Assembly (NCBI RefSeq): GCF_018918325.1
Contig: NZ_JAHLQH010000045.1
Span: 16,225 to 80,224, forward strand
Source of the DNA: Clostridium sp. MSJ-8
Lineage (GTDB): Bacteria > Bacillota > Clostridia > Clostridiales > Clostridiaceae
DNA: 64,000 bases
Direction of reading: 5' to 3'
Position numbers and translations under genes: made by a program. Shown here piece by piece: positions 1 to 14,505 of this stretch (positions within the stretch are counted from its first letter, which is position 1; each line of letters starts with the position of its first letter). The notes under the pieces were generated by a model. That model ran no database searches and was not told the origin of the DNA. It saw nothing but the letters and a program-made list of their open reading frames with translations.

Positions 1-603
1 GAGTATCAGAATATTATGGATGAATTAATACATAAATATAGAGCTACAGAACATGAATATAAAAATCATCTAAATACATTAGCTGCAATGGTTAATTTAG
101 ACGGAGATGAAGCGTTAAGTAATGATATTAATAAATATGTAAAAGAGATAGCTGTGTCTAATGCATATTCTAATCTGAAATATATTGATAATGTAATAAT
201 TAAAGCAGTTCTTTATAATAAAATAAAAGAATGCCAAGAGAAAAATATAAAATTTAATTATAGTGTAAAGAGTAATATGACTGATTGCTCAATCCAAGAT
301 ACAGAATTATCTATAGTTATTAATAATTTGATTAATAATGCTATAGAAGCAGTGGCATTGTTAGAAAATAGAAGAATAAATATAGAAATATATTATGATG
401 TTAGATATATAATTCAAGTGAGTAATACTTATGATACAACTAAATCAATTGATCTTTCAGAAATATTTAAAAAAGGAAAATCCTCTAAAGGAAATAATAG
501 AGGATATGGATTATATACAGTAAAGAGAGTCGTTGAAAAAAATAATGGGAGTATAGATGTTGATACGAAGGATGAATATTTTATATTAACAATAACTATT
601 TAG
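1..603 (+). CDS. AgrC-like sensor histidine kinase, C-terminal part (cut by window edge)
   Basis: The reading frame is open from base 1, so this is the 3' part of a longer gene. What remains is the dimerisation and GHKL ATP-binding region of an AgrC/ComD-type kinase. Seen: the histidine box (EYKNHLNTL), an N box (NNLINNAIEA) and a glycine-rich lid (GNNRGYGLYTVKRVV) followed by the usual KNNGSI strand. In this family the missing N-terminal half has about six membrane helices and binds a secreted cyclic peptide; the histidine then passes phosphate to a LytTR response regulator. No such regulator lies in the window, so it may be upstream. A paralog with broken kinase motifs follows after about 40 bases. 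Inference: this kinase controls the peptide cluster at 4983-12046 through the repeat operator at 4708-4737. Confidence 0.85.
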   Translation, partial: EYQNIMDELIHKYRATEHEYKNHLNTLAAMVNLDGDEALSNDINKYVKEIAVSNAYSNLKYIDNVIIKAVLYNKIKECQEKNIKFNYSVKSNMTDCSIQDTELSIVINNLINNAIEAVALLENRRINIEIYYDVRYIIQVSNTYDTTKSIDLSEIFKKGKSSKGNNRGYGLYTVKRVVEKNNGSIDVDTKDEYFILTITI

Positions 604-642
604 TTTACAAGAGTAGTTATTTTATCAGGAGAGATTTTTTTT

Positions 643-1854
643 ATGATGTTTATTTTAGGATGTATAGAAACTTTTTTTATGTTTATTTTTTATAATATTC
701 TTTTTAATAGGGATTGGAAAAAAAATATTATATTACATACAATAATTAGTATATGCTATACTTGCCTTTCGCTTAAGATATTAAATATTACAAATGATTA
801 TTACTCGTTAGTATGTATTTTTATTGTAGCAATTATAGAAAGTAAGATATTGAATAAAGAAGTGATTTTATCATTTATGGAAATGATAATGGCTAACATT
901 ATACTTATGGTATTAATTTTGGTAATTGCTGGGTTAAAATATACTTCAGTAGGGCAAAATATAGAAAATAAGTATTATATATTAATAATAGTTATATGTA
1001 ATAGCATGTGTAGTGTTTTCATGAATTGGATAATGAAAAAAACGAATAAAGATTTAGAGATATATCTAATAAAAAGCAAGAATGCTTGGTACATAATTAT
1101 TAATATTCTTTGTATATTTTTCTTAAATAATTTTATAATTGATACATTAGGTACTAGTAAGCCTATTTTTGTGTTTATTGAAGGGAGTTTTATAATATTT
1201 ATTGTAATAAATATATATTTATATATATCTATTTACAAGATGTTAGAACAAAAGGAAAAATTAAAAATTAAGTTAGAATATACAAAGGTAATTGACGAAT
1301 TAATTAATAAATTTAAGGATAATGAACAAGAATATATGAATTCTATTAATAAGTTAGTATCTATAGTGGATTCTCAAGGTAGTGATAGATTGAAATGTAA
1401 GGTTCATAATTATACAGATGCTATAATAATAGAAGATAAATATTCAAAACTTAAGTATATAAATGATACACTTATAAAAGCAATTATATATAATAAGCTT
1501 CAAGAATGTGATATAAATGATATAAGTTTCGAGTATAATAATTTAAATATGGATGTGAGACAGTCGAAATTAACAGATTCAGAATTATCTTATGTTCTCA
1601 ATAGTTTGTTAAATGAGGCAATTAAGTTATCAATGAATTCTGAGAAGAGATATATAGAATTAAAGTCAAAAGATAATGATAAAAATTCATTAAGCTTAAA
1701 ATTTAGTGTGAATCAATACGTTAATTTAGAATATATTCAAAAAAATGATAAAGATAATCTAATATCTTTATCCAAGAAGATTATAGAAAAAAGAAAAGGA
1801 AAGATAAACTTCTATATAAAAAATCAATATATGATTATGGATATAAATATATAG
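643..1854 (+). CDS. AgrC-like membrane protein with degenerate kinase domain
   Basis: 403 residues. The first ~200 residues form about six hydrophobic helices, as in AgrC peptide receptors. The rest aligns with the neighbouring kinase but has lost its key residues: the histidine box reads EYMNSINKL (His replaced), the N box reads LNSLLNEAI (second Asn to Glu), and the glycine-rich lid is replaced by KNDKDNLISL. The frame is intact over the full length, so this is a conserved pseudokinase rather than a recent frameshift. An AGGAG site lies upstream; two adjacent ATGs (643 and 646) are possible starts. It may be a decoy receptor, a heterodimer partner or an immunity/sensing protein. Function is inferred only. 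Confidence 0.8.
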   Translation: MMFILGCIETFFMFIFYNILFNRDWKKNIILHTIISICYTCLSLKILNITNDYYSLVCIFIVAIIESKILNKEVILSFMEMIMANIILMVLILVIAGLKYTSVGQNIENKYYILIIVICNSMCSVFMNWIMKKTNKDLEIYLIKSKNAWYIIINILCIFFLNNFIIDTLGTSKPIFVFIEGSFIIFIVINIYLYISIYKMLEQKEKLKIKLEYTKVIDELINKFKDNEQEYMNSINKLVSIVDSQGSDRLKCKVHNYTDAIIIEDKYSKLKYINDTLIKAIIYNKLQECDINDISFEYNNLNMDVRQSKLTDSELSYVLNSLLNEAIKLSMNSEKRYIELKSKDNDKNSLSLKFSVNQYVNLEYIQKNDKDNLISLSKKIIEKRKGKINFYIKNQYMIMDINI

Positions 1855-2054: not shown

Positions 2055-2945
2055 ATGAAACTTGAGATAAAGAATTTAAGAAAGACTTTTAACAATGAGA
2101 AGATTGTCGCACTAGATAATTTGAGTTTAAGCATACCTATAGGTACAAGTTTTGGAGTGCTAGGTAGAAATGGTGCGGGAAAGACTACAATAATAAGAAT
2201 ATTATTGCAGATATATGGTAAGGATTCTGGATCAATATTATATGATGGAAGAGATATATTTAAAGAAAAAATAAGAATAGGATATCTTCCAGAGGAAAGA
2301 GGAATATATTTAAAAATTACTGTTAAGGAACAACTTAAATACTTTGGTAAGTTAAAGGGACTATCAGGTAAACAAGCAGAAATAAATGCAAAAAAGTGGC
2401 TTGAGAGACTTGGAATATCTGAGTATTATAATAGAAAAGTTGAGGAGTTATCTAAGGGAAATAAACAAAAGGTACAATTAATAACAGCGTTAATTGATAA
2501 TCCAGAAATTATTATTTTGGATGAACCTTTTAGTGGATTAGATCCTGTTAATGTGGAATTGTTTAAATCGGTGTTTAAAGAACTGCTAGAACAAAAGAAA
2601 ACTATTATTTTTTCAAGTCATAGAATTGATGATGTAGAAGAATTTTGTGACAATGTTGTACTGTTGAATAAAGGAAAGATAGTTGATTATGGGACTGTTT
2701 CAGAAATAAAAAATAAATTCGGGAAAAAAATATTAACATTAGAAACAGATAAAGAGATATGTGGAATATTAAATGACTTAGAATTAGAACATGAAAAAGT
2801 AAATTCGTCATATAAGATTACATTAGATAATGCTTATAACATAGGTCATTTGATTGAAAATATTGTAAGAGAAAAAATACTTATAAATAATATAAGTGTT
2901 GATCAAGTGTCATTAAATAAAATATTTATAGAAAAATTATCATAA
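2055..2945 (+). CDS. ABC transporter ATP-binding protein, NatA type
   Basis: 296 residues. Walker A (GRNGAGKTT), a Q-loop region, a signature motif (LSKGNKQKVQ), Walker B (IIILDEPFSGLD) and the switch histidine (SSHRIDD) are all visible. The C-terminal ~80 residues match the accessory domain of NatA/YhaQ-type ATPases. RBS AGGAGG; ATG start. The permease begins 17 bases downstream, so they form one exporter. NatAB-type exporters expel ions, drugs or peptides. Its place between peptide-sensing kinases and a RiPP operon suggests peptide export or self-immunity, but that is inference. Confidence 0.9.
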   Translation: MKLEIKNLRKTFNNEKIVALDNLSLSIPIGTSFGVLGRNGAGKTTIIRILLQIYGKDSGSILYDGRDIFKEKIRIGYLPEERGIYLKITVKEQLKYFGKLKGLSGKQAEINAKKWLERLGISEYYNRKVEELSKGNKQKVQLITALIDNPEIIILDEPFSGLDPVNVELFKSVFKELLEQKKTIIFSSHRIDDVEEFCDNVVLLNKGKIVDYGTVSEIKNKFGKKILTLETDKEICGILNDLELEHEKVNSSYKITLDNAYNIGHLIENIVREKILINNISVDQVSLNKIFIEKLS

Positions 2946-2962
2946 GGTATGGAGGAAGAAAA

Positions 2963-4177
2963 ATGAATAATTTTTTAAATACTGTGTGGTTTACATTTAA
3001 AAATAAGGTTAAGAGTAAGTTCTTTTTAATATCAACAATAATATTTGGAGTTTTGATTATAGGTGGAATGAATTTTACAGCTTTAAAGAATATATTTACA
3101 GATGATTCTACTGCTTCTAAATCAGCAACTATAATTATAAATAATATGAGTGAGACATTTATAGTTGATAAAGAAGAAATGGAGAAATTGTTTCCAGATG
3201 ACAATATTGCGTTTGTAGATAACTCAAGAGAAGCAAAAAAAATATTAAATAAAAATCTAGAAAATATGATGTTAAGTATAGAGGATAATGCGGAAAAAAT
3301 ATATGATATTAAAATATATAAGGGTAGACATGCAGATGCAAGTAAAATAAGCACTTTAGCAGAAGCTACAAAACAATTATCTAGATATAGTATAATGCAG
3401 CAATTAGAAGTTGATAGTACTATACAAACTGCATTAATGGCAGAACCTCAAATAGAATATTGCACTAGTAGTGAAACATCAGATGGCCGAATGGCTATAG
3501 CTTATATTTTAACATTAGCATTTATGATATTACTTAATTTTTATGTTCAAGGAGTAGCAGGAACAATAGTATCTGAAAAAAATAATAGAGTAATAGAGGT
3601 ATTGTTAACATCAGCAAAGTCTACTCAATTATTCTTTGGCAAAATAGTAGGAAATTGTATGGCTTCTATAGCACAAATAGTGTTGTTAGGTATAGTAGGA
3701 GTAGGGACATATATGATCAGTGGAGTTGAACCATTTGAATTTCAAGGTATTTCAATAGACTTATCAATATTAACAAAAGGACAATTAGCATTAGTAGTAG
3801 TATTCTTCATACTAGGTTATTTAATGTATTCGTTAGCAGCTGGAGCATTAGCTTCTTTTGCAAATAATAATGATGATTTAAATCAAGCTATATTACCAGT
3901 TACAATATGTTTTATGGTTAGTGTTGTCTTAGCTATGGCATATTTAATATATCCTAATATAAGTGTGTTAAATACTTTATCGTGTATACCGTTATTCTCG
4001 CCTATGGTTATGATAATAAGAGTTGTAATGGCAGATATAAGTAATACAGCCATTATTGTAAATGCAGTACTTTTAGTAATGACAATAGTAGCATTCTCAT
4101 TAATAGGTAGTTTTATATATAGTAAAGGAACATTAAATGATAGTAAAAAATTATCATTTTTATCGATATTTAAATAG
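2963..4177 (+). CDS. ABC-2 type permease, NatB type
   Basis: 404 residues. One N-terminal membrane helix (about residues 20-40) is followed by a soluble extracytoplasmic region (about 50-160) and then five hydrophobic segments to the C terminus, the usual NatB/ABC-2 layout. The motif VSEKNNRVIEVLLTSA just after the second membrane helix is typical of these permeases (EKE...ietLL). RBS GGAGG. It follows the ATPase gene in one operon and is followed by a 28-residue membrane peptide. Substrate unknown; the RiPP made next door is the obvious candidate. Confidence 0.88.
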   Translation: MNNFLNTVWFTFKNKVKSKFFLISTIIFGVLIIGGMNFTALKNIFTDDSTASKSATIIINNMSETFIVDKEEMEKLFPDDNIAFVDNSREAKKILNKNLENMMLSIEDNAEKIYDIKIYKGRHADASKISTLAEATKQLSRYSIMQQLEVDSTIQTALMAEPQIEYCTSSETSDGRMAIAYILTLAFMILLNFYVQGVAGTIVSEKNNRVIEVLLTSAKSTQLFFGKIVGNCMASIAQIVLLGIVGVGTYMISGVEPFEFQGISIDLSILTKGQLALVVVFFILGYLMYSLAAGALASFANNNDDLNQAILPVTICFMVSVVLAMAYLIYPNISVLNTLSCIPLFSPMVMIIRVVMADISNTAIIVNAVLLVMTIVAFSLIGSFIYSKGTLNDSKKLSFLSIFK

Positions 4178-4192
4178 AGAGGGGAATATTTT

Positions 4193-4279
4193 ATGAATCA
4201 TATTATATTATTGTTAGCAGGAATAGGTGTATCAATGTTAATAGCTTATGCTGTTAAACCAAAGAAAATGAAAAAATAA
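4193..4279 (+). CDS. 28-residue single-helix membrane peptide
   Basis: The ATG follows GAGAGGGG by 7 bases and lies 15 bases after the permease stop. The product starts MNHIILLLAGIGVSML and ends VKPKKMKK: one membrane helix with a basic cytoplasmic tail, which predicts N-out topology. A strong terminator follows directly, so it is the last gene of the ABC operon. Not recognised; a transporter accessory peptide or a small immunity peptide is possible. Confidence 0.6.
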   Translation: MNHIILLLAGIGVSMLIAYAVKPKKMKK

Positions 4280-4707: not shown

Positions 4708-4737
4708 TTTCGTGTACTGTATAGTGATTTTCGTGTA
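4708..4737 (+). promoter_or_regulatory. LytTR-type operator: two 9-bp direct repeats 21 bp apart
   Basis: TTTCGTGTA at 4708-4716 is repeated exactly at 4729-4737 with a 12-base spacer. Two 9-bp direct repeats with 12-13 bp between them is the established layout for AgrA/ComE/PlnC-type LytTR regulators, which bind as dimers on one DNA face. It lies 246 bases before the SDR gene. A possible -10 (TATCAT) is at 4761-4766; no -35 is obvious, as expected for an activated promoter. The link to the AgrC-like kinases is inference. Confidence 0.6.
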
Positions 4738-4982
4738 GATGATTATAGAAATTTAGGCGTTATCATTAATAAACTACATATTTTCATGCCAATATTGATG
4801 AAAAACATAAGAAGAAAAAGAATAAAAGTAATTATGAATAATATGTAAAGCACAAAATTAAGTTTGACTTATTTTTGTGTATTATAAAATAACCTTTTAG
4901 GTAATAGATGAAATATATAGAGAAAGATAAGGTAAGATAAAGATGTTCCAAGGGAACAACAAAATAACAAAGGAGGCTTGAA

Positions 4983-5750
4983 ATGAATTTTAAGTTAAAA
5001 GATAAGGTTGTACTAATAACTGGATGTAGCAGAGGAATAGGATTAGGAATAGCAACTGAATTTGCAAGTTTAGGAGCAACATTAGTATTAACGGAAATTA
5101 AAGAAAGATTTGAAGAATTAACAAAAGTAAAGAAACAGCTAGAAGAGAAGTTTCAAGTTGACATTGAAATTTTGTGCTTGGATATAAAAGATATAAAAGA
5201 TATTAGAAAAAAATTAGGTGAATTAAAAGAACCTTTTAATAAGATAGATATTTTAGTTAATAATGCTGGAATAAATATTATTAAAGATTCTCTAGAACTT
5301 TTAGAAGATGAATGGGATCAAGTATTAGATGTGAATTTAAAAGGAACGTTTTTTATGACACAGCATGTCGTAAAAAGTATGATAGTAAATAATATTAATG
5401 GTTCAATAATAAATATTGCATCTCAACATGGAGTGATAGGTAATTTGAATAGAGCAGCATATTGTTCTAGTAAAGCAGGAATAATTAATTTGACTAGAGC
5501 ATTGTCGTATGAATGGGCGAAGTATGGTGTAAGAATTAATTGCATAAGTCCAACATATGTTGAAACAGACAATAATAGAGAATATTTAAATTCAAGTAAA
5601 GGTAAAAGAGAATATTTAAATAAAATACCAATAAAAAAATATGCAAAACCCGAACATATTGCAAAAGCGTGTGTATTCTTAAGTGATACTGATTCGGAAC
5701 TAATCACAGGACAAAATATAATAATAGATGGTGGTTACACTAGTATATAG
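4983..5750 (+). CDS. Short-chain dehydrogenase of the daptide-like cluster
   Basis: 255 residues, a complete classical SDR: cofactor loop T13-G-C-S-R-G-I-G20, LVNNAGI, catalytic Ser147, Tyr160 and Lys164 (YCSSK), and the C-terminal GQNIIIDGG. RBS AAGGAGG. First gene of the operon SDR / SPASM-RRE / methyltransferase / aminotransferase / precursors / M50. In daptide biosynthesis a dehydrogenase oxidises the side-chain hydroxyl of the precursor's C-terminal Thr; the beta-keto acid then loses CO2 to leave an aminoketone. The SDR is the only oxidoreductase in this operon, so I assign it that step by inference. An ordinary FabG-like metabolic role is the alternative, but the neighbours argue against it. 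Confidence 0.85.
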   Translation: MNFKLKDKVVLITGCSRGIGLGIATEFASLGATLVLTEIKERFEELTKVKKQLEEKFQVDIEILCLDIKDIKDIRKKLGELKEPFNKIDILVNNAGINIIKDSLELLEDEWDQVLDVNLKGTFFMTQHVVKSMIVNNINGSIINIASQHGVIGNLNRAAYCSSKAGIINLTRALSYEWAKYGVRINCISPTYVETDNNREYLNSSKGKREYLNKIPIKKYAKPEHIAKACVFLSDTDSELITGQNIIIDGGYTSI

Positions 5751-5763
5751 GGGGATAAAAAGT

Positions 5764-7824
5764 ATGAAGGAAGTTGTATTAGTAGATATTAAATTAAATT
5801 TAGATTGTATATATTCGATAGGACAAAGCAATAAAACAATTTTGTTAAAAAATATTTTAGAGAAAAATAATGTTACTACTTTTCAGTATATTGAATCAAG
5901 TTTACCTAATGTTATAGATATTGTTGACGAGATACTATCATTTACTGAAGAAAATATAATATTTAGAGTAACAGATATGAATTATAAGTTGGTTTGCAAA
6001 TTGATAGAGTTATTAAAAGAAGAATGTGATGATGCAAATATTATATTGTTTGGAGATGTAGAGGGAGAAATAGAAGGCATAAAGATACATAATGAAAATC
6101 AGGATTATATAACTGGCATTTTAGAAAATTTAGAAATTGATAATTATGATCTTTCCAATATGGATATATATGAATTTGATAACGTAGATGGAATAAAAGA
6201 GTGTGAGAATTTCCTTGTAGATTTAACAGATTATAATTCAGAGGTAATTGATTTAGAGATTATAAAGAAGAATATAGAACATATTTTAAACAAAAATGAA
6301 GATTTAAAAATATTTTTTAAATCTAAAGAATTAATTAATATAGGTCAAGAAAACTTGAAGAAAATTATAAATATTACTCAGGAAAATAACGGACAATACG
6401 GAATAATGGTGGAAGCAATTAATGATCTTAATCAGCTAGAGGAGTTTAATTATTCAAGTATAATATTTAGAACTAAAATGTTAGAGGATATTTATTCTGA
6501 AGAGGTTTCTAATAAAGTAAAAGACAATTGTGAAGTGGCAATTATAGTTTCAGATTATGATGCCAATAAACATAATTCAATGATAGAAGAGTTAATGATG
6601 AAGGTAAGTGCAACAAGAATAAGAGTGTTTGTTTCAAATGAAGAAAAGAATTTTAGTTGTGTTTATGTAAATAGTATTACTGGTATAAAGAATATGGCTA
6701 TAGAAAATGGGCTTATGATGTGGTACCAAGGCACATATCCTCCAACAGCACTAAATAATACTGTAAAACATATATATTTAAGTGAACATATAGAAGAATC
6801 AAAACTTAAGGAATTAGATAAAATAGCGTCTGTAAATCATGCAATTATATCAAATTCAAATGATAAAAATAGTGGAATATCGTATAGCAAACATGAACAT
6901 GTAATAAAAAAAGGTGTTAAATCAAATATTCAAATAGGATTAGACAAAGGTTCCTTTGGAAAAAGATATATAGAGGTTCAATATAAAGAAGTAAGAAATA
7001 TATCAGACTTTTCAGGTAATAATTATATGTTAAAGATATTAGATGATGAAGATCTAGAAGTATTTAGAAATGACATAGAGATATTTAACAAGGTTGGAAA
7101 GCTTCCTATATATATGGTTAATGGAATATTAAAGAACTCATGTAGATTTTTACCGAAGGGAAGATGCCAAGTCAATTCAATACCAAGAATCGATATAGAT
7201 GGACAAGGCAAAATTAGTAGTTGTGATAGTGAATATAAAATAGGTGAATTAGGAGACGACTACTTTGACTTAATGAATAATATATATAAAAAGTCTAGTG
7301 AAGAAACAATTAATAGAAATTGTTCAGAATGTAGCGCTATAGATAAGTGTGGAGCTTGTAAGATGCTACCAGGGGTGGTGAGTAGAGAAAAGTATTGCTC
7401 ATTGATGATGGAAGTTGATAATATTGATAAATTTATAATTAGTTCTTTGGTAATTAAGATGCTTATGGATTCTTCTAAATATTTTAGTGATATAGATGTA
7501 GAAGAAATAAGGATAATTAATAGAAATGTTAATAATCTATTTAATAAAAGTGTTAAGAAAGATTCAAATAGTATAGTAAAAGAGAGCGTAGTAATGATAA
7601 AAGTTAGAGATGAAGTTATGTTATTTGACCTTATTACTAATAATGTTATTGCAATATCATCATTAGTTTCATATACCTTAGAAGGTTATATGAAAGGATA
7701 TCACTTAGAGGAAATAAAGCAAATATCGAAGTCTGAATTTGAAGACAATAATGATATTGAAAAATGTATAGAAGAAGCTACAGCACAATTAGAATATTCA
7801 GAAATTATAGAAAGGATTGCATAG
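5764..7824 (+). CDS. SPASM-domain peptide maturation protein with PqqD-like RRE, no radical-SAM triad
   Basis: 686 residues from the ATG at 5764, just after AGGGGGA; an in-frame start further upstream would overlap the SDR gene. The middle (about 270-455) resembles the barrel of radical-SAM/SPASM RiPP maturases, yet I find no CxxxCxxC motif anywhere. The SPASM cysteines are present: C460, C468, C487, then C520-x2-C523-x5-C529-x2-C532 and C545. The last ~80 residues (about 605-686) read as a PqqD-like RiPP recognition element. So it can bind leaders and perhaps an auxiliary Fe-S cluster, but probably does no radical chemistry. In daptide systems a RRE protein partners the dehydrogenase; this is the likely counterpart, with a far larger architecture. 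Confidence 0.75.
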   Translation: MKEVVLVDIKLNLDCIYSIGQSNKTILLKNILEKNNVTTFQYIESSLPNVIDIVDEILSFTEENIIFRVTDMNYKLVCKLIELLKEECDDANIILFGDVEGEIEGIKIHNENQDYITGILENLEIDNYDLSNMDIYEFDNVDGIKECENFLVDLTDYNSEVIDLEIIKKNIEHILNKNEDLKIFFKSKELINIGQENLKKIINITQENNGQYGIMVEAINDLNQLEEFNYSSIIFRTKMLEDIYSEEVSNKVKDNCEVAIIVSDYDANKHNSMIEELMMKVSATRIRVFVSNEEKNFSCVYVNSITGIKNMAIENGLMMWYQGTYPPTALNNTVKHIYLSEHIEESKLKELDKIASVNHAIISNSNDKNSGISYSKHEHVIKKGVKSNIQIGLDKGSFGKRYIEVQYKEVRNISDFSGNNYMLKILDDEDLEVFRNDIEIFNKVGKLPIYMVNGILKNSCRFLPKGRCQVNSIPRIDIDGQGKISSCDSEYKIGELGDDYFDLMNNIYKKSSEETINRNCSECSAIDKCGACKMLPGVVSREKYCSLMMEVDNIDKFIISSLVIKMLMDSSKYFSDIDVEEIRIINRNVNNLFNKSVKKDSNSIVKESVVMIKVRDEVMLFDLITNNVIAISSLVSYTLEGYMKGYHLEEIKQISKSEFEDNNDIEKCIEEATAQLEYSEIIERIA

Positions 7825-7826
7825 AT

Positions 7827-8606
7827 ATGAGATATTATGGAATGTTTCAAGATATAAAGGATACTGATTTAGATGTAATAGAAAGTGAAATATATGATGA
7901 TTACTTTGCAGAATTCTATCATAAATTTTGTGGAATAACTACATATGATTTGGATTTCTATTTACAAGAAGCGTTTTCATTCAATAGAAGAGATATAAAG
8001 ATATTAGAACTTGCATGTGGAACTGGAAGAATAACAATACCATTATTAGAAAGAGGTTTTACAGTTGAAGCTATAGATTTGTCAGAATCTATGTTGGGAG
8101 TATTAAGAAGAAACCTAGAAGGTTTGCCAAGAAAGTTAAGGAAAAATGTTAACATCAAAAATATGAATATTCTTGACTTAGACTATGAAGAAGAATTTGA
8201 TATGGTAATATTTCCAGCAACTACAATATGTTTATTAAATGAAGAGGAGATAAGTATATTATTCAACAAAGTATATAAAGCAATAAAAAAGGGTGGAAAG
8301 TTTATATTTGATTATAAAAATGAAGATGAAAGCAAATCTGGCTTCATTAATGGAAATAGGAATTTTATTGTAGTTGATAAGAATGAAGATTGCATATATC
8401 AAGAATTTATAGATTATGATAATCATGAAACAATAGTGAATTTTTATGTAGAAAAGGATAATAAAAAATATTTATCATCTACTACAAAAAATATGATGAT
8501 GAAAAGGAATATAGAAAATCATATTATTAATTCTTATTTTGATGAAGATAATTGTTTAGATGAACATTTAAATGGTGACGTAAGAATGAATGTATTAATG
8601 AAGTGA
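7827..8606 (+). CDS. SAM-dependent methyltransferase of the daptide-like cluster
   Basis: 259 residues from the ATG at 7827, two bases after the previous stop; the RBS (AAAGGA) lies inside the upstream gene. Class I Rossmann fold: motif I LELACGTGRITIPL at about 54-67, acidic residue in VEAIDLSESM, motif II region EEFDMVIFPATTIC. In the daptide pathway a methyltransferase adds two methyls to the new C-terminal amine, giving N,N-dimethyl-1,2-propanediamine. Placement between the RRE protein and the aminotransferase fits. A different peptide position could be methylated; the sequence cannot decide this. Confidence 0.8.
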   Translation: MRYYGMFQDIKDTDLDVIESEIYDDYFAEFYHKFCGITTYDLDFYLQEAFSFNRRDIKILELACGTGRITIPLLERGFTVEAIDLSESMLGVLRRNLEGLPRKLRKNVNIKNMNILDLDYEEEFDMVIFPATTICLLNEEEISILFNKVYKAIKKGGKFIFDYKNEDESKSGFINGNRNFIVVDKNEDCIYQEFIDYDNHETIVNFYVEKDNKKYLSSTTKNMMMKRNIENHIINSYFDEDNCLDEHLNGDVRMNVLMK

Positions 8607-8616
8607 GGTGAATAGA

Positions 8617-9933
8617 ATGTATAATTTATATCATCCTTTAAGATCTTTTGAAGAGGGAGAAGATTATGTAGAAGTAGTTGAATCAGAAGGAATTATATTA
8701 AAGGATTCAAGAGGAAAAGAATATAAAGATTTTATTAGTGGCTTATGGAATATGCCATTAGGTTATTCAAATGAAAAAGTTAAAAATTCAATAAAGGATC
8801 AATTAGATAGATTACCATATGTTAATTTATTTAACTTGTCTAATGATATAGATAAAAAGTTAGCAGAAAAGCTTTATCTAATGACAGATAAGGAATTTGT
8901 TAAGACAATATATACATGTACAGGTTCAGAATCAATAGAAGTTGCAATTAAGTTAGCTCATAAATATCAGTATATATTGGGAAATAAGGACAAAAAAAAT
9001 ATTGCGGTATTAGACATGTCTTATCACGGCACTTATTATGGGTCAATGTCTGTAAGTGGAATGGATTATCCTTTTGTTAAGGAAGGCTATGGTCAAATTT
9101 TAAACAATATAAAATATTTAAAAACTCCAATGTGTAGGTGTTGTAAAACTGAAGATATAAAGGATTCATGCATGAAAGAATTCATGTCAGATTTAGAGCT
9201 ATTTATAGAGGAAAATGGTGATGAATTAGCTGCATTTCTATTAGAACCTATTTTAGGATCAGCAGGGGTGATTCCTATTCCAAAACAGTATATGAATAGA
9301 ATAAAACAGGTGTGTGAAGAAAAAGACATATTATTGATATTTGATGAAGTAGCAACTGGATTTGCTAGAACAGGTAGTATGTTTGCATATGAATTATATG
9401 GAGTTAAGCCAGATATAATGCTTCTATCTAAAGGAATAAATAATGGATACATTCCAATGGGAGCAGCACTTATTAATGATAAAGTGAATAAAGTTATGAG
9501 TAGTGTAGAAGAACCTTTCTTTCATTTATCTACTCAAAATGGTAATCCATTAGGTTGTGCATCTGCATTAGCATCTATAGAGATATATGAAGAAGAGAAT
9601 TACTGTGAGATAGTTAGAGAAAAAGGTGAAAAATTTAAAGAAATGTTAATTAACAAATTAGGAAAATATCCTAGTGTTTTTGAAATAAGGCAAGTTGGAT
9701 TTATGTTTGCCATAGAATTAAGTAAGAGCAAGACTGAACGTCTTAAAATAGACGATTTTAGAATAGAAGAATTAATCAAAAAATTAGTTTATAAAGGAAC
9801 TCTTATTTATGGATATTATACAAGTATTAGTTCTGGATTAACATTAATGCCTTCCTTCATTACAACAGAGGAAGAATGGCTAGCAGGAATAAAAGATATT
9901 GAGAATGCTATAAAAAGAGTAGCAATTTCTTAA
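8617..9933 (+). CDS. Class III PLP aminotransferase of the daptide-like cluster
   Basis: 438 residues from the ATG at 8617, six bases after GAGGTG; a GTG at 8608 is in frame but overlaps that RBS. The fold is of the ornithine/DAPA aminotransferase type: CTGSESIEVAIKLA for phosphate binding, FDEVATGFARTG, and the Schiff-base lysine K272 in LLSKGINNGYIPMGA. An odd cysteine cluster (CRCCKTEDIKDSC, about 173-185) might bind metal. In daptides the aminotransferase converts the C-terminal aminoketone, left after Thr decarboxylation, into a 1,2-diamine, giving a peptide with two amino ends. The gene directly precedes the small-peptide genes. Confidence 0.85.
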   Translation: MYNLYHPLRSFEEGEDYVEVVESEGIILKDSRGKEYKDFISGLWNMPLGYSNEKVKNSIKDQLDRLPYVNLFNLSNDIDKKLAEKLYLMTDKEFVKTIYTCTGSESIEVAIKLAHKYQYILGNKDKKNIAVLDMSYHGTYYGSMSVSGMDYPFVKEGYGQILNNIKYLKTPMCRCCKTEDIKDSCMKEFMSDLELFIEENGDELAAFLLEPILGSAGVIPIPKQYMNRIKQVCEEKDILLIFDEVATGFARTGSMFAYELYGVKPDIMLLSKGINNGYIPMGAALINDKVNKVMSSVEEPFFHLSTQNGNPLGCASALASIEIYEEENYCEIVREKGEKFKEMLINKLGKYPSVFEIRQVGFMFAIELSKSKTERLKIDDFRIEELIKKLVYKGTLIYGYYTSISSGLTLMPSFITTEEEWLAGIKDIENAIKRVAIS

Positions 9934-9961
9934 GAAAGTTTTATGAAAGGATCTAGTAAAT

Positions 9962-10048
9962 ATGGTTGAGTTCATAAATAATATATTGATTCTTTTGTCA
10001 AAAGAGCCAGTGCCAAATGACGAGAGTGAGAATCAAATAATAATTTAA
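9962..10048 (+). CDS. 28-residue peptide, amphipathic helix plus acidic tail
   Basis: ATG 28 bases after the aminotransferase stop, with GAAAGGA nine bases upstream. The product begins MVEFINNILILLSK and continues EPVPNDESENQ. A hydrophobic amphipathic start followed by a Pro-rich acidic tail recalls AgrD autoinducer precursors, but the Cys/Ser-ring core between them is missing and no AgrB is in the window. It could instead be a spurious short frame. Listed because of its RBS and its place in the operon. Confidence 0.35.
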   Translation: MVEFINNILILLSKEPVPNDESENQIII

Positions 10049-10079
10049 TTCAGATATTTTAAAGATAGTATGAAAATTG

Positions 10080-10102
10080 AATTATCATTATTATTGATAA
10101 TT
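10080..10102 (+). terminator. Hairpin between enzyme genes and precursor genes
   Basis: AATTATCA / TGATAATT with a seven-base loop, followed by TTAATATAAAA. It is a weak, all-AT stem that probably lets part of transcription through or protects an RNA end. Such an element would help set a different level for precursors than for enzymes. Confidence 0.45.
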
Positions 10103-10142
10103 TTAATATAAAAAAATAATAAATTAGGAGGTGAAAGATATT

Positions 10143-10205
10143 ATGATTATAGGACCAATGATACCAATAATACCAATATTTATAGCAAAAATATTATTTA
10201 AATAA
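10143..10205 (+). CDS. 20-residue hydrophobic Ile/Pro peptide
   Basis: It has one of the best ribosome binding sites in the cluster (AGGAGGTGA, eight bases before ATG). The product starts MIIGPMIPIIPIF and ends AKILFK: almost wholly hydrophobic, prolines every three to four residues, two lysines near the end. No leader and no similarity to the precursors that follow. It lies between the enzymes and the precursor array, so it may be an accessory or leaderless active peptide. Not recognised. Confidence 0.5.
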   Translation: MIIGPMIPIIPIFIAKILFK

Positions 10206-10253
10206 AAATAATCTAATATAAAAAATATTAAAATTAATTAGGAGGAAAATGAA

Positions 10254-10364
10254 ATGAAAAATAATGAAGTAAGAGTAGAAAAACTAGAAAAGGTACAAGC
10301 TCCATGTGAATGGTGTTTTGCAGCAGGAGTAGGCGTAGGAATAGCAATAATAGCATTAACATAA
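10254..10364 (+). CDS. Daptide-like precursor peptide 1 (CEWC type)
   Basis: 36 residues, RBS GGAGG. Leader-like half MKNNEVRVEKLEKVQAP, then CEWCFAAGVGVGIAIIALT. The charged first half with VEKLEKVQAP is nearly invariant in all five copies, as expected for the RRE-bound leader. The second half is a hydrophobic helix rich in Gly/Ala/Val/Ile with C18-x2-C21 and a C-terminal Thr. C-terminal Thr is the diagnostic residue of daptide precursors, where it becomes the diamine. The protein is identical to precursor 2. Confidence 0.85.
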   Translation: MKNNEVRVEKLEKVQAPCEWCFAAGVGVGIAIIALT

Positions 10365-10415
10365 TAGGTAAATAATAAATCAAAAAATATATAGATTAAT
10401 TAGGAGGAAAATAAA

Positions 10416-10526
10416 ATGAAAAATAATGAAGTAAGAGTAGAAAAATTAGAAAAGGTACAAGCTCCATGTGAATGGTGTTTTGCAGCAGGAGTAGGTGTAG
10501 GAATAGCAATAATAGCATTAACTTAA
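10416..10526 (+). CDS. Daptide-like precursor peptide 2 (CEWC type, identical to 1)
   Basis: 36 residues, the same protein as precursor 1 from a slightly different DNA sequence (for example ACT rather than ACA for the last Thr). RBS GGAGG. The surrounding non-coding sequence is also nearly the same (ATTAATTAGGAGGAAAA), so 1 and 2 come from a recent tandem duplication. Silent differences with no amino-acid change suggest the peptide is kept by selection or gene conversion. Confidence 0.85.
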   Translation: MKNNEVRVEKLEKVQAPCEWCFAAGVGVGIAIIALT

Positions 10527-10576
10527 TAAGTAAATAATGAATAAAAAATATATAGATCAATTAAGAGGGAAATAAA

Positions 10577-10690
10577 ATGAAAAATAATGAAATAAGAGTA
10601 GAAAAACTAGAAAAAGTACAAGCACCATGTCATGGATGTTGCTTCGCTGTAGGTATAGGTTTAGTTGCAACAGTAGTTGCATTAACATAA
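10577..10690 (+). CDS. Daptide-like precursor peptide 3 (CHGCC type)
   Basis: 37 residues. Leader MKNNEIRVEKLEKVQAP as in copies 1-2, but the core is CHGCCFAVGIGLVATVVALT, with C18, C21, C22 and a His instead of Glu-Trp. It is a hybrid: leader like copies 1-2, core like copies 4-5. The RBS is weaker here (AAGAGGGA). The C-terminal Leu-Thr is kept. Confidence 0.85.
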   Translation: MKNNEIRVEKLEKVQAPCHGCCFAVGIGLVATVVALT

Positions 10691-10741
10691 TAAAAAATAT
10701 AAATCATAAAAATAAAATGTAGTGGAAAAGGAGAAAAAAAT

Positions 10742-10852
10742 ATGAATACAGAAATAAAAGTAGAAAAATTAGAAAAGGTACAAGCACCATGTCATGGATG
10801 TTGTTTTGCAGCAGGAGTAGGAGTAGTAGTAGCAGTAGTTGCATTAACATAA
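10742..10852 (+). CDS. Daptide-like precursor peptide 4 (CHGCC type)
   Basis: 36 residues. Leader MNTEIKVEKLEKVQAP, core CHGCCFAAGVGVVVAVVALT. RBS AAAAGGAG. Differs from precursor 5 at only two residues (AVVALT here, AIVTLT there). Cysteines at 17, 20 and 21; C-terminal Thr. Confidence 0.85.
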   Translation: MNTEIKVEKLEKVQAPCHGCCFAAGVGVVVAVVALT

Positions 10853-10903
10853 TATAAAATATAAATTATAAAAATAAAATGTAATGGAAAAGGAGAAAAA
10901 AAT

Positions 10904-11014
10904 ATGAATACAGAAATAAAAGTAGAAAAATTAGAAAAGGTACAAGCACCATGTCATGGATGTTGTTTCGCAGCAGGAGTAGGAGTAGTAGTAGCAATAG
11001 TTACATTAACATAA
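10904..11014 (+). CDS. Daptide-like precursor peptide 5 (CHGCC type)
   Basis: 36 residues. Leader identical to precursor 4; core CHGCCFAAGVGVVVAIVTLT. Gene and upstream spacer (AAAATGTAATGGAAAAGGAG) nearly repeat those of precursor 4, a second tandem duplication. It lies 36 bases before the M50 protease gene. The first four-fifths of the core and the final Leu-Thr are conserved even though the penultimate segment varies, which marks the C terminus as important. Confidence 0.85.
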   Translation: MNTEIKVEKLEKVQAPCHGCCFAAGVGVVVAIVTLT

Positions 11015-11050
11015 TATAAATGTAGCTAAGGAAAGAATGAGGTGAGAATA

Positions 11051-12046
11051 ATGCAATATATAGTAAATAGTAATTTTGATATATATAAAAAAGAGGATTA
11101 TTATCTACTTAGAAATAAAGTTGATAATTCATTTATTAGATTTACTGATAATGAATATAGAGTATATCTAATGTTTTTAGATTACAAAGATGCAGAAATT
11201 TTAAATAAAGAGGATAGGGATATTTTTAACGCTCTTCTTGATGTAAATATAATAGTTGGTGAGAATCAAGAAATAAAAAACAATAAAGAAAAATTTAATA
11301 TTTTTAATTTTAAAGTAAAAGAAATAAACCCAGATAAGTTATTAAATAAAATATCTGCTGTTAATAAGATAATATTCACAAAACAATTTAAGTGTATATA
11401 TATATTTACTATTTTAATTGCATTATTTTCATTACATTTTATAAAAAATGAAGGAATAGATATTTTTTCATTAGGTTTTTATACTAAGCAAGATTTAAGT
11501 AAAATGTTTTTCGTATACTTGGGAGTAATAATTACTATAGGAATTCATGAATTGGCACATGCACTTACTCTTGTGCATTATAATATGAAGGTAAGCAAAA
11601 TAGGACTGAAGTTCTATTTCTTGCAATTAATAGCTTACTGTGATTTAAGTGAATTATATCTAATAGATGATAAAAAGAAAAAAATAGCTACATATTCAGC
11701 AGGAATACTTTCTCAGATTTTTTGTTCATCAGTAGCAATTATTCTTTATAATATTTTATTAATAGGATTTAATAATAGAATTGATGTTTTAATTGTATAT
11801 GCAATAATTAATTTAGGAATAGCTATTTTTAATACAATACCATTTGTAAAATTCGATGGATATTGGATATTATCCACAATATTTAATTCATATAATTTAG
11901 ATGCAAAAGCACAAGCAGAAGTAAAGAGATTCTTTAAGAGAGAAGATGGAATTAAGAGTAGTTTAGTGCTATTTGGAATGATAAGTATACTTGTAAAAGG
12001 AATATTATTGTTAGAAACATTTAATGTAGTAATATCATACATATAG
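11051..12046 (+). CDS. M50 (site-2-protease type) membrane metalloprotease with PqqD-like N terminus
   Basis: 331 residues from the ATG at 11051, after GAGGTGA; a GTG at 11042 lies within that RBS. Residues 1-80 look like a PqqD-like winged helix (LLRNKVDNSFIRFTDNEYRVYLMF). Membrane helices follow, with the zinc motif H166-E-L-A-H170 in one and D269 in VKFDGYW as the third ligand, the SpoIVFB/M50 arrangement. Daptide clusters carry an intramembrane metalloprotease thought to remove the leader. Here it directly follows the precursors, whose hydrophobic cores could sit in the membrane. The RRE-like front end would bring the protease to the leader. Confidence 0.85.
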   Translation: MQYIVNSNFDIYKKEDYYLLRNKVDNSFIRFTDNEYRVYLMFLDYKDAEILNKEDRDIFNALLDVNIIVGENQEIKNNKEKFNIFNFKVKEINPDKLLNKISAVNKIIFTKQFKCIYIFTILIALFSLHFIKNEGIDIFSLGFYTKQDLSKMFFVYLGVIITIGIHELAHALTLVHYNMKVSKIGLKFYFLQLIAYCDLSELYLIDDKKKKIATYSAGILSQIFCSSVAIILYNILLIGFNNRIDVLIVYAIINLGIAIFNTIPFVKFDGYWILSTIFNSYNLDAKAQAEVKRFFKREDGIKSSLVLFGMISILVKGILLLETFNVVISYI

Positions 12047-12076
12047 CTAAAAGGGGCTGTTATGAAGTCCTAAAAT

Positions 12077-12129
12077 AAAATCCAATGTTATTTGATAATA
12101 GAAATATTATTAAATAACATTGGATTTTT
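12077..12129 (+). terminator. Terminator of the daptide-like operon
   Basis: AAAATCCAATGTTATTT / AAATAACATTGGATTTT form a 17-bp stem, then TTTTTC. The right flank to about 12200 (AAGAAATACTATTATAAATA, then ATTGATATTAATCAA) matches the right half of the palindromic repeat family, so this is probably a partial or diverged copy. A similar AAAATCCAATGTTATTT arm also occurs at about 22706. Confidence 0.85.
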
Positions 12130-12224
12130 CATTATAAGAAATACTATTATAAATAATTTACTTAAATCAGTAATAATTGATATTAATCAAATGAAAAAAT
12201 AAGTGCTCAACCTTAAATTATATT

Positions 12225-13403
12225 TTAATTGTTGTCTTTATCATATCTTGCATGAGTATATTTTTTTGTTAATTCATTTATGTCATTTTTATATTGTTTA
12301 GTTATTATGTTGTTTATTTCATTGGGGGTTAAGTTATTTAACTTAGATATTTTCTTTTTGTATTTTCTGACTTTTTTGTAATATTCTAATCTTATTTTTC
12401 CGTTTTCAGTGTCAGGAAAGTTAGTATTTTTTTTCTTTAGATAATTGAATAAATTATCATTTCCGTTTAATTTTATTGTAGTACTATCTTCATTTACAAC
12501 TTGAACTTTATTCTTAATAAAGTTATTTATAAACATAAAAACTGTATATATTATATATGCCATTATCATAACAAATGCTATAAATTTTAATATTATCATA
12601 GCTATTTGGAGTACATTATTTCCAGAAGTTACATCTTGCATATTTAATAATTCTAAAGAATTATCTTGTTCTTGCATAGTTATATGTTTTCGGTTTATAT
12701 TTAAGCTTTTTTGCAAGAAACCATAGCCACTATCTAAAAGTAACCAAAATAGATTTTTTATAGGTGAAAATAATACATTAAATAGTTTGTCTATATCAAA
12801 AGCTTTTATCATTATAAGACATATAATTAGTAATAGTAAGAATCCTACTATATAGATGTTATTTATTTTAAGCATTTTATGAGGGTCTAAGAATTCACCA
12901 TCTCCATACAAATGTAGATATTCTCTAACGTTAAATACATATTTAGCAATAAAAAATAATATTATATATATTCCAGTAAGAATACTAAGTAGAGAAGAAA
13001 TGCTCTTGTTATTGATGCTTAAAATTAATATACCGAAGATTGCTACTAGATATATGCTAGGAATAGATATATTTATATGGTCAATTTTTTTACTGTAATA
13101 GAAGCTTGATAGTTTAAATAATATAAGGTATGTTGCAGTCATAACAAGTAGTAAGACTATATTGGTTTTCATTATTATTATTGGAATAAACATAAGTGTA
13201 TGAAAAATAATAAACTGATAGTATTTTTTAGATAGCTTTCTTGCGAAGTATGATAAGAAGACAATTATACATGGATATAGTGCTGCAATATAATTTATTT
13301 CTTTAGTTGTTATATATATTAAGCTTAATGTTATTATGTAAAATGCTATTGAATGCATAACAAGATCAATATAATCACTTATAATAATTATTCTTTTATT
13401 CAT
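12225..13403 (-). CDS. Membrane protein with C-terminal DUF4129-like domain
   Basis: 392 residues. About seven membrane segments lie in the first ~230 residues, a further one at about 265-290, and a cytoplasmic C-terminal domain (about 295-385) with the DUF4129-like pattern (RLEYYKKVRKYKKKI...NELTKKYTHARYD). RBS GGAGGTG; the start overlaps the DUF58 stop by eight bases. In many bacteria MoxR-DUF58 operons end with a transglutaminase bearing this domain (TgpA). This protein has the membrane and DUF4129 parts but no transglutaminase Cys/His/Asp core. Compare the complete version at 43190-45904. Confidence 0.7.
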   Translation of the reverse strand: MNKRIIIISDYIDLVMHSIAFYIITLSLIYITTKEINYIAALYPCIIVFLSYFARKLSKKYYQFIIFHTLMFIPIIIMKTNIVLLLVMTATYLILFKLSSFYYSKKIDHINISIPSIYLVAIFGILILSINNKSISSLLSILTGIYIILFFIAKYVFNVREYLHLYGDGEFLDPHKMLKINNIYIVGFLLLLIICLIMIKAFDIDKLFNVLFSPIKNLFWLLLDSGYGFLQKSLNINRKHITMQEQDNSLELLNMQDVTSGNNVLQIAMIILKFIAFVMIMAYIIYTVFMFINNFIKNKVQVVNEDSTTIKLNGNDNLFNYLKKKNTNFPDTENGKIRLEYYKKVRKYKKKISKLNNLTPNEINNIITKQYKNDINELTKKYTHARYDKDNN

Positions 13404-14505
13404 CTCTTTTCACCTCCATAACAAATATATTCTTGCCACTATTTATACTAATATCGTCTTTTGAATAAGTAGGGATTACAAGCATAGTTTTTATATTTCG
13501 GGTATTTAATTCATTGTAAGCATCAGTAATATTATTATTTATATTGCTACTAATAATAATATTTATAGAATCCTCTTTATAGTTTTGTTTTATTATATTT
13601 TCAAAAGCAATACTAGGTTTATCAATTTTTACTTTAGCTAGTATTTCATTTATTTTAATGTATTGAGCATTAGATGTGCCGGCATCTATAATTATTTTAT
13701 TTTGATCTTCTCGGAATGAATAGTTACAAGTAAAAGCTATAGGAATAGATTTATTACAGAATTCTCTTACATATGTTGAAGCTATTCTTATGGAATATTC
13801 CACAAGGGATTCACCACCTATGTTAGGTTTATCCACATTTAATAGTATATTTACTTTAAACATGTGGATATTTTCGTATTGATTAACCATAAGTGTGGAT
13901 TTTTTTGCAGATACTTTCCAATTAATTTTTTTAAAACCATCATAAGGTTGATATTCGCGAAGTCCCTTGAAAATATATGAATTTTCAAATATATTATCAT
14001 TAAATACTCCTTCATTAACCATAGATTGTATAGGATATAAGACTTCTGGTGTATTGCAAATGTTAGGAAATACATATAAGTAACAATTACTGTGTAGGTT
14101 CTTAGTATCAGTCATATTAAAGAAAATATTATGACCTATTATATCAATGTTACTAATTGTATAGTATCCTCTTTTGTGAGGGATTATATCCATGCTTTTT
14201 ATTAATTTGCTATTAGATTGTATTTGAAATATATCGTTTCTATAGTATTTATCTGTTATAATTGCATTTTTATTTTTAGTAAATTCTATATTTTTAGATA
14301 TTCTGAATTTTATGTTTAAGTTAGAAAGAGGAAACGGTTTTTTATTTTCAATAGTTTCTATTAATTTTAATTTATCCCCAACATATACCCTAGTTTCAGA
14401 AAAGTTAAGTGAAATAAATAAATCTTTAGTCCAAATTTTTTCATAAAATTTATTAAGCAATCCATATAAACAAAATGCAAATACAAATAATAAGAATATT
14501 ATCAT
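13396..14505 (-). CDS. DUF58 family protein
   Basis: 369 residues from the ATG at 14505, eight bases after GGGAG. A membrane hairpin lies at the N terminus, then a beta-rich region, then the family signature GLREYQPYDGFKKINWKVSAKK with ..VNQYE. DUF58 proteins carry a von Willebrand-like fold and are partners of MoxR ATPases. The start is two bases from the MoxR stop, showing translational coupling. Function is not known precisely; envelope or protein-complex assembly is the general view. Confidence 0.85.
   Translation of the reverse strand: MIIFLLFVFAFCLYGLLNKFYEKIWTKDLFISLNFSETRVYVGDKLKLIETIENKKPFPLSNLNIKFRISKNIEFTKNKNAIITDKYYRNDIFQIQSNSKLIKSMDIIPHKRGYYTISNIDIIGHNIFFNMTDTKNLHSNCYLYVFPNICNTPEVLYPIQSMVNEGVFNDNIFENSYIFKGLREYQPYDGFKKINWKVSAKKSTLMVNQYENIHMFKVNILLNVDKPNIGGESLVEYSIRIASTYVREFCNKSIPIAFTCNYSFREDQNKIIIDAGTSNAQYIKINEILAKVKIDKPSIAFENIIKQNYKEDSINIIISSNINNNITDAYNELNTRNIKTMLVIPTYSKDDISINSGKNIFVMEVKRDE

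Follow-up and report, generated by a model that had tools for sequence, protein, structure and literature searches.

A Bacillota-type daptide cluster with CxxC-headed cores and a DapB adaptor resembling a B12-type radical-SAM/SPASM protein

What does a compact run of enzyme and small-peptide genes in Clostridium sp. MSJ-8 encode, and what is the long SPASM-type protein in its midst? We analyzed a 64,000-nucleotide stretch of contig NZ_JAHLQH010000045.1 (hereafter the window) from this 2.8-Mb, 99% complete genome, in which the initial annotation had proposed a daptide-like cluster of ribosomally synthesized and post-translationally modified peptides (RiPPs). Judged from its genes, the locus belongs to the Bacillota form of daptide-type cluster that is already known, and its cores are of an uncommon variant. 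We consider it likely that its enzymes would act on five peptides headed by cysteine, turning the C-terminal Thr of each into a dimethylated diamine, and that its adaptor, DapB, is a retired B12 (cobalamin)-type radical S-adenosylmethionine (SAM)/SPASM protein in which eight cysteines of the SPASM pattern persist, together with a RiPP recognition element (RRE) predicted to bind the leader.

Open reading frame (ORF) and family searches recovered every gene part named in the initial annotation, in compact order on the plus strand: a short-chain dehydrogenase (SDR), a SPASM/RRE protein, a methyltransferase, a class III aminotransferase, five precursors and an M50 protease occupy window positions 4983-12046. 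The originally proposed span, 4708..12129, was right in gene content and inaccurate at its limits, as position 4708 falls between genes and the final gene stops at 12046. Just upstream lie an ABC transporter (2055-4177) and regulators that had gone unremarked. The features are as follows, with NCBIfam bit scores given against NCBI's curated cut-offs:

2055..2945, plus strand: ABC transporter ATPase, DapT1-like (PF00005, 5.6e-29)
2963..4177, plus strand: ABC transporter permease, DapT2-like (PF12698, 2.4e-32)
4983..5750, plus strand: DapC-like SDR, predicted oxidative decarboxylase (PF13561, 1e-60; motifs TGCSRGIG and YCSSK)
5764..7824, plus strand: DapB-like adaptor of 686 residues, with a B12/radical-SAM-like fold lacking CxxxCxxC, a SPASM region and an RRE
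5764..6663, plus strand: DapB residues 1-300, cobalamin-dependent radical-SAM-like predicted fold
6973..7575, plus strand: DapB residues 404-604, SPASM region with eight conserved, invariant Cys (TIGR04085, E 6e-4, below its cut-off)
7564..7821, plus strand: DapB residues 601-686, RRE (predicted leader-binding) domain
7827..8606, plus strand: DapM-like SAM methyltransferase (NF041820 daptide_MTase, 9.4e-42, 143 of 175 bits)
8608..9933, plus strand: DapD-like class III aminotransferase (NF041821 daptide_amino, 3.1e-106, 355 of 450 bits; motif LSKG)
10254..10364, plus strand: precursor 1, MKNNEVRVEKLEKVQAP followed by CEWCFAAGVGVGIAIIALT, with the predicted cleavage point between them (NF041808 daptide_123, 1.4e-4, 21.6 of 25 bits, the best precursor score; ribosome-binding site)
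10416..10526, plus strand: precursor 2, peptide identical to precursor 1
10577..10690, plus strand: precursor 3, core CHGCCFAVGIGLVATVVALT (no NCBIfam match)
10742..10852, plus strand: precursor 4, core CHGCCFAAGVGVVVAVVALT (NF041808, 0.023)
10904..11014, plus strand: precursor 5, core CHGCCFAAGVGVVVAIVTLT (NF041808, 0.048)
11051..12046, plus strand: DapP-like M50 intramembrane protease (HELAH), predicted leader peptidase (NF041824 daptide_HExxH, 6.4e-40, 137 of 300 bits; PF02163)

For DapM, DapD and DapP the best NCBIfam families are the daptide ones, in agreement with the proposed cluster type, with every score, including that of the best precursor, below its curated cut-off; NF041823 gave no match to the window's DapB. 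Among the four distinct precursors, one matches two daptide precursor models, two match one and the peptide at 10577 matches none. In family searches the set of oxidoreductase, aminotransferase, SAM methyltransferase and site-2-type protease is complete, the oxidoreductase being of the Bacillota subgroup type (PF13561, not PF00465), and an adaptor with a C-terminal RRE is present (TbiB1/TfuB1 matches). All five precursors have the aliphatic core and C-terminal Thr of the daptide class. Compared with the daptide leader motif ELExMEAP, the window's KLEKVQAP keeps L-7, E-6, A-2 and P-1, with V replacing M at -4. MpaC strictly requires a C-terminal Thr, and in the leader L(-7) and M(-4) matter (PMC10036551, PMC12670281).

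Ren et al. (2023) assigned 180 of 483 daptide clusters to Bacillota, with a PF13561 oxidoreductase replacing the Fe-type dehydrogenase, a shorter protease and up to more than 10 precursors, and noted tailoring enzymes encoded in some daptide clusters (PMC10036551). Because the window fits this Bacillota form as that paper's main text presents it, its SDR, phylum and precursor number are not new. An SDR as the mark of a new kind was ruled out on this ground, and the original emphasis on unusual enzymes in a class best known from Actinobacteria loses most of its force; the cluster type, the SPASM/RRE partner and the cysteine motif of that annotation stood.

A peptide filter applied to the whole window (ATG, ribosome-binding site, 28-60 residues, hydrophobic tail, final Thr) returned five ORFs, all within 9900-11050, and none in the remainder, so the Thr-ended set is more than chance. 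Each is preceded by a ribosome-binding site; all five carry the leader VEKLEKVQAP, and their DNA identity is 80-97%. As had been noticed at the outset, the cores carry a cysteine motif: all five predicted cores start with C-x-x-C (CEWCF in two, CHGCCF in three), and the motif recurs in other clusters (L-numbers denote loci). A PCxxCF head occurs in three Lachnospiraceae-type clusters, on one core each in L077 (Anaerocolumna aminovalerica) and L090 and on two in L084, and CGWC stands at the equivalent place in one of three precursors of the Priestia locus L024.

These heads raise the possibility, to which we give a minor share of belief, that the mature product is something other than a simple daptide ending in dimethyl-1,2-propanediamine (Dmp). 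The CxxC head could carry a further modification (disulfide, thioether or bound metal), perhaps made by an enzyme whose gene lies elsewhere, and the Thr chemistry may end with the ketone or the primary amine. That CxxC stands where the mature peptide is predicted to begin, in all five precursors, would fit such a product, as would the recurrence of PCxxCF in L077, L084 and L090, whose clusters also have B12-dependent radical-SAM (B12-rSAM) genes, and the tailoring enzymes of some daptide clusters (PMC10036551). However, B12-rSAM genes also lie beside precursors without a CxxC head (L011, L067, L087, L089), and we found none in the window cluster, the nearest relative in the host genome being 25% identical. 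A B12-rSAM enzyme as the cysteine modifier of all CxxC clusters was rejected, as neither the window cluster nor the Priestia cluster yielded such a gene and other clusters have one without CxxC heads. For core 1 the computed [M+H]+ is 1877.018 with Dmp (core -16.94 Da) and 1875.002 with one disulfide (-18.96 Da).

The SPASM protein proposed as RRE partner was recovered as a 686-residue DapB with a SPASM region and a C-terminal RRE. Its residues 1-300 have a predicted Rossmann plus TIM-barrel fold like that of OxsB, CysS and TokK, and their best fold matches are B12/radical-SAM two-domain proteins. The radical-SAM motif CxxxCxxC occurs in none of the 19 members of our DapB set (A4), the window's protein included, and Pfam has no family for the latter; DapB as a working radical-SAM enzyme was ruled out on these two grounds, and because the cluster motif is absent we predict that it does no radical chemistry. 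Eight cysteines of the SPASM region are invariant in 19 of 19 DapBs, and the region fits the eight-cysteine pattern, which we take to be a SPASM signature. TIGR04085 scored 18.7 and 20.1 bits on DapB, under its 27-bit cut-off. A profile search of the PDB with the SPASM region gave a single unconvincing match, Foldseek and VIA yielded no SPASM structure for it (in Foldseek, none among the chains on offer), and PADLOC had no match for DapB or DapP. SPASM goes unmentioned in the main texts, supplements apart, of both daptide papers (PMC10036551, PMC12670281), and the main text on Bacillota daptides (PMC10036551) does not describe the adaptor's SPASM/radical-SAM nature; a literature search for daptide with SPASM met both words only in separate passages of a review.

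To place this protein among its relatives we used an aminotransferase-profile scan of named genomes, which gave 387 relatives and 80 loci that were kept; identity to these named relatives is low (best DapD about 43%). DapB inspection covered 30 of these 80: a DapB-type match was present in each of the top 25 (L066-L090, among them L066 from Paenibacillus solani and L072 from Saccharibacillus sacchari) and in L108, and absent from the four lower loci inspected (L094, L095, L113, L116). An inventory of 36 loci (the window, L066-L090, L108, plasmid loci L024 and L027, and seven further genome stretches) held an SDR in 31, a DapD in 35 and a SPASM-type DapB frame without CxxxCxxC in 27. Hydrophobic Thr-ended precursor candidates lie at 28 of the 36 (26 accepted), with thiopeptide-type Thr-ended precursors instead in six (L061, L063, L069, L070, L079, L082). 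The initial annotation had named enzymes without Thr-ended peptides as the case against it, and we saw no such case; a Thr-ended candidate is present at 33 of the 36 loci, in a search that sought Thr-ended (once also Ser-ended) or Cys-rich ORFs and that other precursor kinds could escape. The three loci without one are L052 and two short contigs, L088 (5.7 kb) and L085 (7.2 kb). L012 was dropped as an enzyme set lacking such a peptide when one ending in AFT was found just upstream.

DapB matches are sparse in broader samples, with 4 of 194 genomes in a family sample, 4 of 225 in an order sample and 3 of 398 in a phylum sample; one of the last three, the G246 enzyme, was set aside as an ordinary radical-SAM/SPASM enzyme with CxxxCxxC, judged by eye. 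At E 1e-5, 14 of 245 Paenibacillaceae-type genomes matched, among them L064 without a DapB and L062 with broken pieces only. Plasmid and viral searches with DapB, and a genome scan with the closest DapBs, yielded nothing useful.

Several loci in this collection have features of their own. The six thiopeptide-type loci pair a SPASM-type or short DapB with SDR and DapD (precursor example TALPETAASSGSSSSDTCSTCGSCSCSSCCT). L052 (P. crassostreae, 9232-11685) holds an orphan 817-residue DapB with intact SPASM cysteines, adjoining polyprenyl-synthase, histidine-kinase and regulator genes that resemble ComQXPA; no SDR or aminotransferase was found there. In L010 (345-1967) a single frame joins a nucleotidyltransferase domain (PF00483) at the N-terminus to a DapM-like methyltransferase, and L027 (6426-13879) is a daptide-type cluster on a Staphylococcus epidermidis plasmid whose DapB and DapM are annotated merely as hypothetical proteins.

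Two relatives retain what the window's DapB lacks. The DapBs of L089 (Lachnotalea glycerini, 11302-13449, 715 residues) and L085 (a Clostridium metagenome-assembled genome; 629 residues, cut by the contig end) both have Pfam Radical_SAM above cut-off and CxxxCxxC, and the NCBIfam matches of the former are B12-binding radical-SAM families, below cut-off. A profile comparison aligned this intact form with DapB over 574 columns, from the N-domain to the SPASM end (prob 99.4), as against only 72 columns (prob 75) for a set of ordinary B12-rSAM enzymes. The L089 locus also encodes DapD, DapM and Thr-ended peptides, with a PqqD-family protein as a gene of its own; a search of its 21 kb yielded no SDR. 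Other DapBs are reduced: those of Lachnospiraceae (about 510 residues) lack much of the barrel region, those of Pseudobutyrivibrio (L081, L083) keep the first three cysteines and have lost the CX2CX5CX2C array, and Priestia/Staphylococcus DapB (about 400 residues) and Streptomyces MpaB (about 345 residues) are homologous but lack the cysteine pattern. As a comparison of sequences, this series suggests stepwise loss. L089 also encodes a further radical-SAM/SPASM enzyme at 8529-9935 (PF04055, PF13186), and the Lachnotalea cluster has very Cys-rich Thr-ended precursors.

In a 43-row aminotransferase tree, all 30 Bacillota DapDs fall in one clade (99/96) and L085 and L089 group together (100/99). 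Near-duplicate or broken rows (L088, L073, L072, L108, L082) were left out, the last 455 residues were used for frames longer than 470, and the interrupted DapB frames of L082 and L108 were kept in pieces. The tree does not resolve branching order inside the Bacillota clade, so any direction of change in DapB is an inference. A speculative scenario, which we think has some chance of being right, is that the C-terminal chemistry of daptides was first carried out by a radical-SAM/SPASM enzyme of the cobalamin type; the SDR would later have taken over the oxidation, with the old enzyme kept as the RRE-bearing adaptor DapB. The radical-SAM loop, then the barrel, then the SPASM cysteines would have been lost stepwise, from Clostridium/Paenibacillus through Lachnospiraceae and Pseudobutyrivibrio to Bacilli and actinomycetes, and Lachnotalea-type clusters may still use the ancestral route for their Thr-ended peptides.

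The same data could be read, improbably in our view, as showing that DapB was never a radical enzyme but arose when a barrel-like scaffold, a metal domain resembling SPASM and an RRE were fused to a B12-like N-domain, with L089 and L085 gaining a radical-SAM core separately. The open order in the DapD tree and the barrel-poor short DapBs would allow this, and the L089 DapB itself lacks a C-terminal RRE, its PqqD-family protein being separate. Against a fusion, the 574-column match is collinear and includes the barrel part, and residues 1-300 match B12/radical-SAM two-domain folds best.

How would a retired radical-SAM/SPASM adaptor work in the cluster? In characterized daptide systems DapB and DapC produce a ketone, DapD an amine and DapM its dimethylated form, with leader removal by DapP proposed (PMC10036551, PMC12670281). 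In the window, the DapB RRE would bind the leader VEKLEKVQAP through L-7, V-4 and P-1, and the SDR with NAD(P)+ would oxidize and decarboxylate the terminal Thr to an aminoacetone. DapD would then transaminate the ketone, DapM dimethylate the amine and DapP cleave after Ala-Pro, with export by the ABC transporter. The SPASM cysteines may hold Fe-S clusters whose role we predict to be mainly structural, because Bacillota clusters with partial (L081, L083) or full (L024, L027) loss of the cysteine pattern keep the SDR and Thr-ended peptides.

The Fe-S clusters could instead be catalytic, for example by accepting or relaying electrons in the SDR step or by taking part in chemistry on the CxxC-head cysteines, making DapB an active redox enzyme and not a scaffold. 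The invariance of the eight cysteines goes beyond what is expected of a disused site, and no other candidate enzyme for the core cysteines is found among the inventoried genes of the window cluster. However, DapM, DapD and DapP too persist where DapB has lost much of the cysteine set or the whole pattern, and Streptomyces clusters with pattern-less MpaBs keep the other steps, using a PF00465-type dehydrogenase. Furthermore, whatever cysteines TfDapB carries, TfDapBC made the ketone with NAD+ independently of metal supplementation (PMC12670281). We therefore judge a catalytic role unlikely and retain the structural one.

The window's cluster shares with the Bacillota daptide clusters of PMC10036551 an SDR, an RRE-fused adaptor, an aminotransferase, a methyltransferase, an M50 protease and several hydrophobic Thr-ended precursors, and differs from them, as the main text presents them, in having CxxC-headed cores in all five precursors. 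The actinobacterial daptides (mpa, tfDap, saDap; NF041820-NF041824) have the same predicted order of steps and a DapB homologous over the SPASM-to-RRE part, whereas the window has an SDR in place of the PF00465 dehydrogenase, a DapB about twice as long with the eight-Cys pattern, and scores under the NCBI cut-offs. Residues 1-300 resemble the cobalamin-dependent radical-SAM enzymes OxsB, CysS and TokK in predicted fold but lack CxxxCxxC and are followed by a SPASM-type region and RRE. The grasp-with-spasm protein TIGR04193 is a SPASM protein that is not known to have a radical-SAM domain. Like it (listed in PMC8939145) and SPASM-type RiPP maturases (PapB, TIGR04148), DapB combines a SPASM-type region (weak matches) with a RiPP substrate; unlike the maturases, it lacks the cluster motif of radical-SAM enzymes and has an SDR as its partner. 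The enzyme of micrococcin-type C-terminal Thr decarboxylation has been called a Bacillota DapC homolog (PMC10036551); there too an SDR-type enzyme acts on a peptide C-terminus, and DapB, SDR and DapD also occur in thiopeptide-precursor loci, but the window's cores are hydrophobic and no thiopeptide genes were seen.

Reading DapB as a radical-SAM/SPASM relative would give its unnamed domain an origin and link daptides, thiopeptide C-terminal processing and radical-SAM RiPP enzymes. It predicts Fe-S clusters in many Bacillota DapBs, whose natural variants form a graded set for asking what these clusters do. The CxxC-headed cores may mark a testable daptide sub-group in anaerobes.

Regulatory genes precede the transporter, partly in L065, a locus reaching upstream of the window:

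15285-16001 of L065: LytTR response regulator
16003-16827 of L065, cut by the window start: GHKL-domain sensor (PF14501)
643-1854 of the window: second sensor-like protein, GHKL-like by eye, without a Pfam match

This upstream set (L065 15285-16827, window 16-1854) resembles agr, and no AgrB was noticed there. Directly after the ABC permease, a membrane-like small ORF of 28 residues (4193-4279) had no match in an NCBIfam search. Between DapD and the precursors lie two further small ORFs with ribosome-binding sites, at 9962-10048 (MVEFINNILILLSKEPVPNDESENQIII) and 10143-10205 (MIIGPMIPIIPIFIAKILFK); neither ends in Thr or matches NCBIfam, and they are possible signal or immunity peptides.
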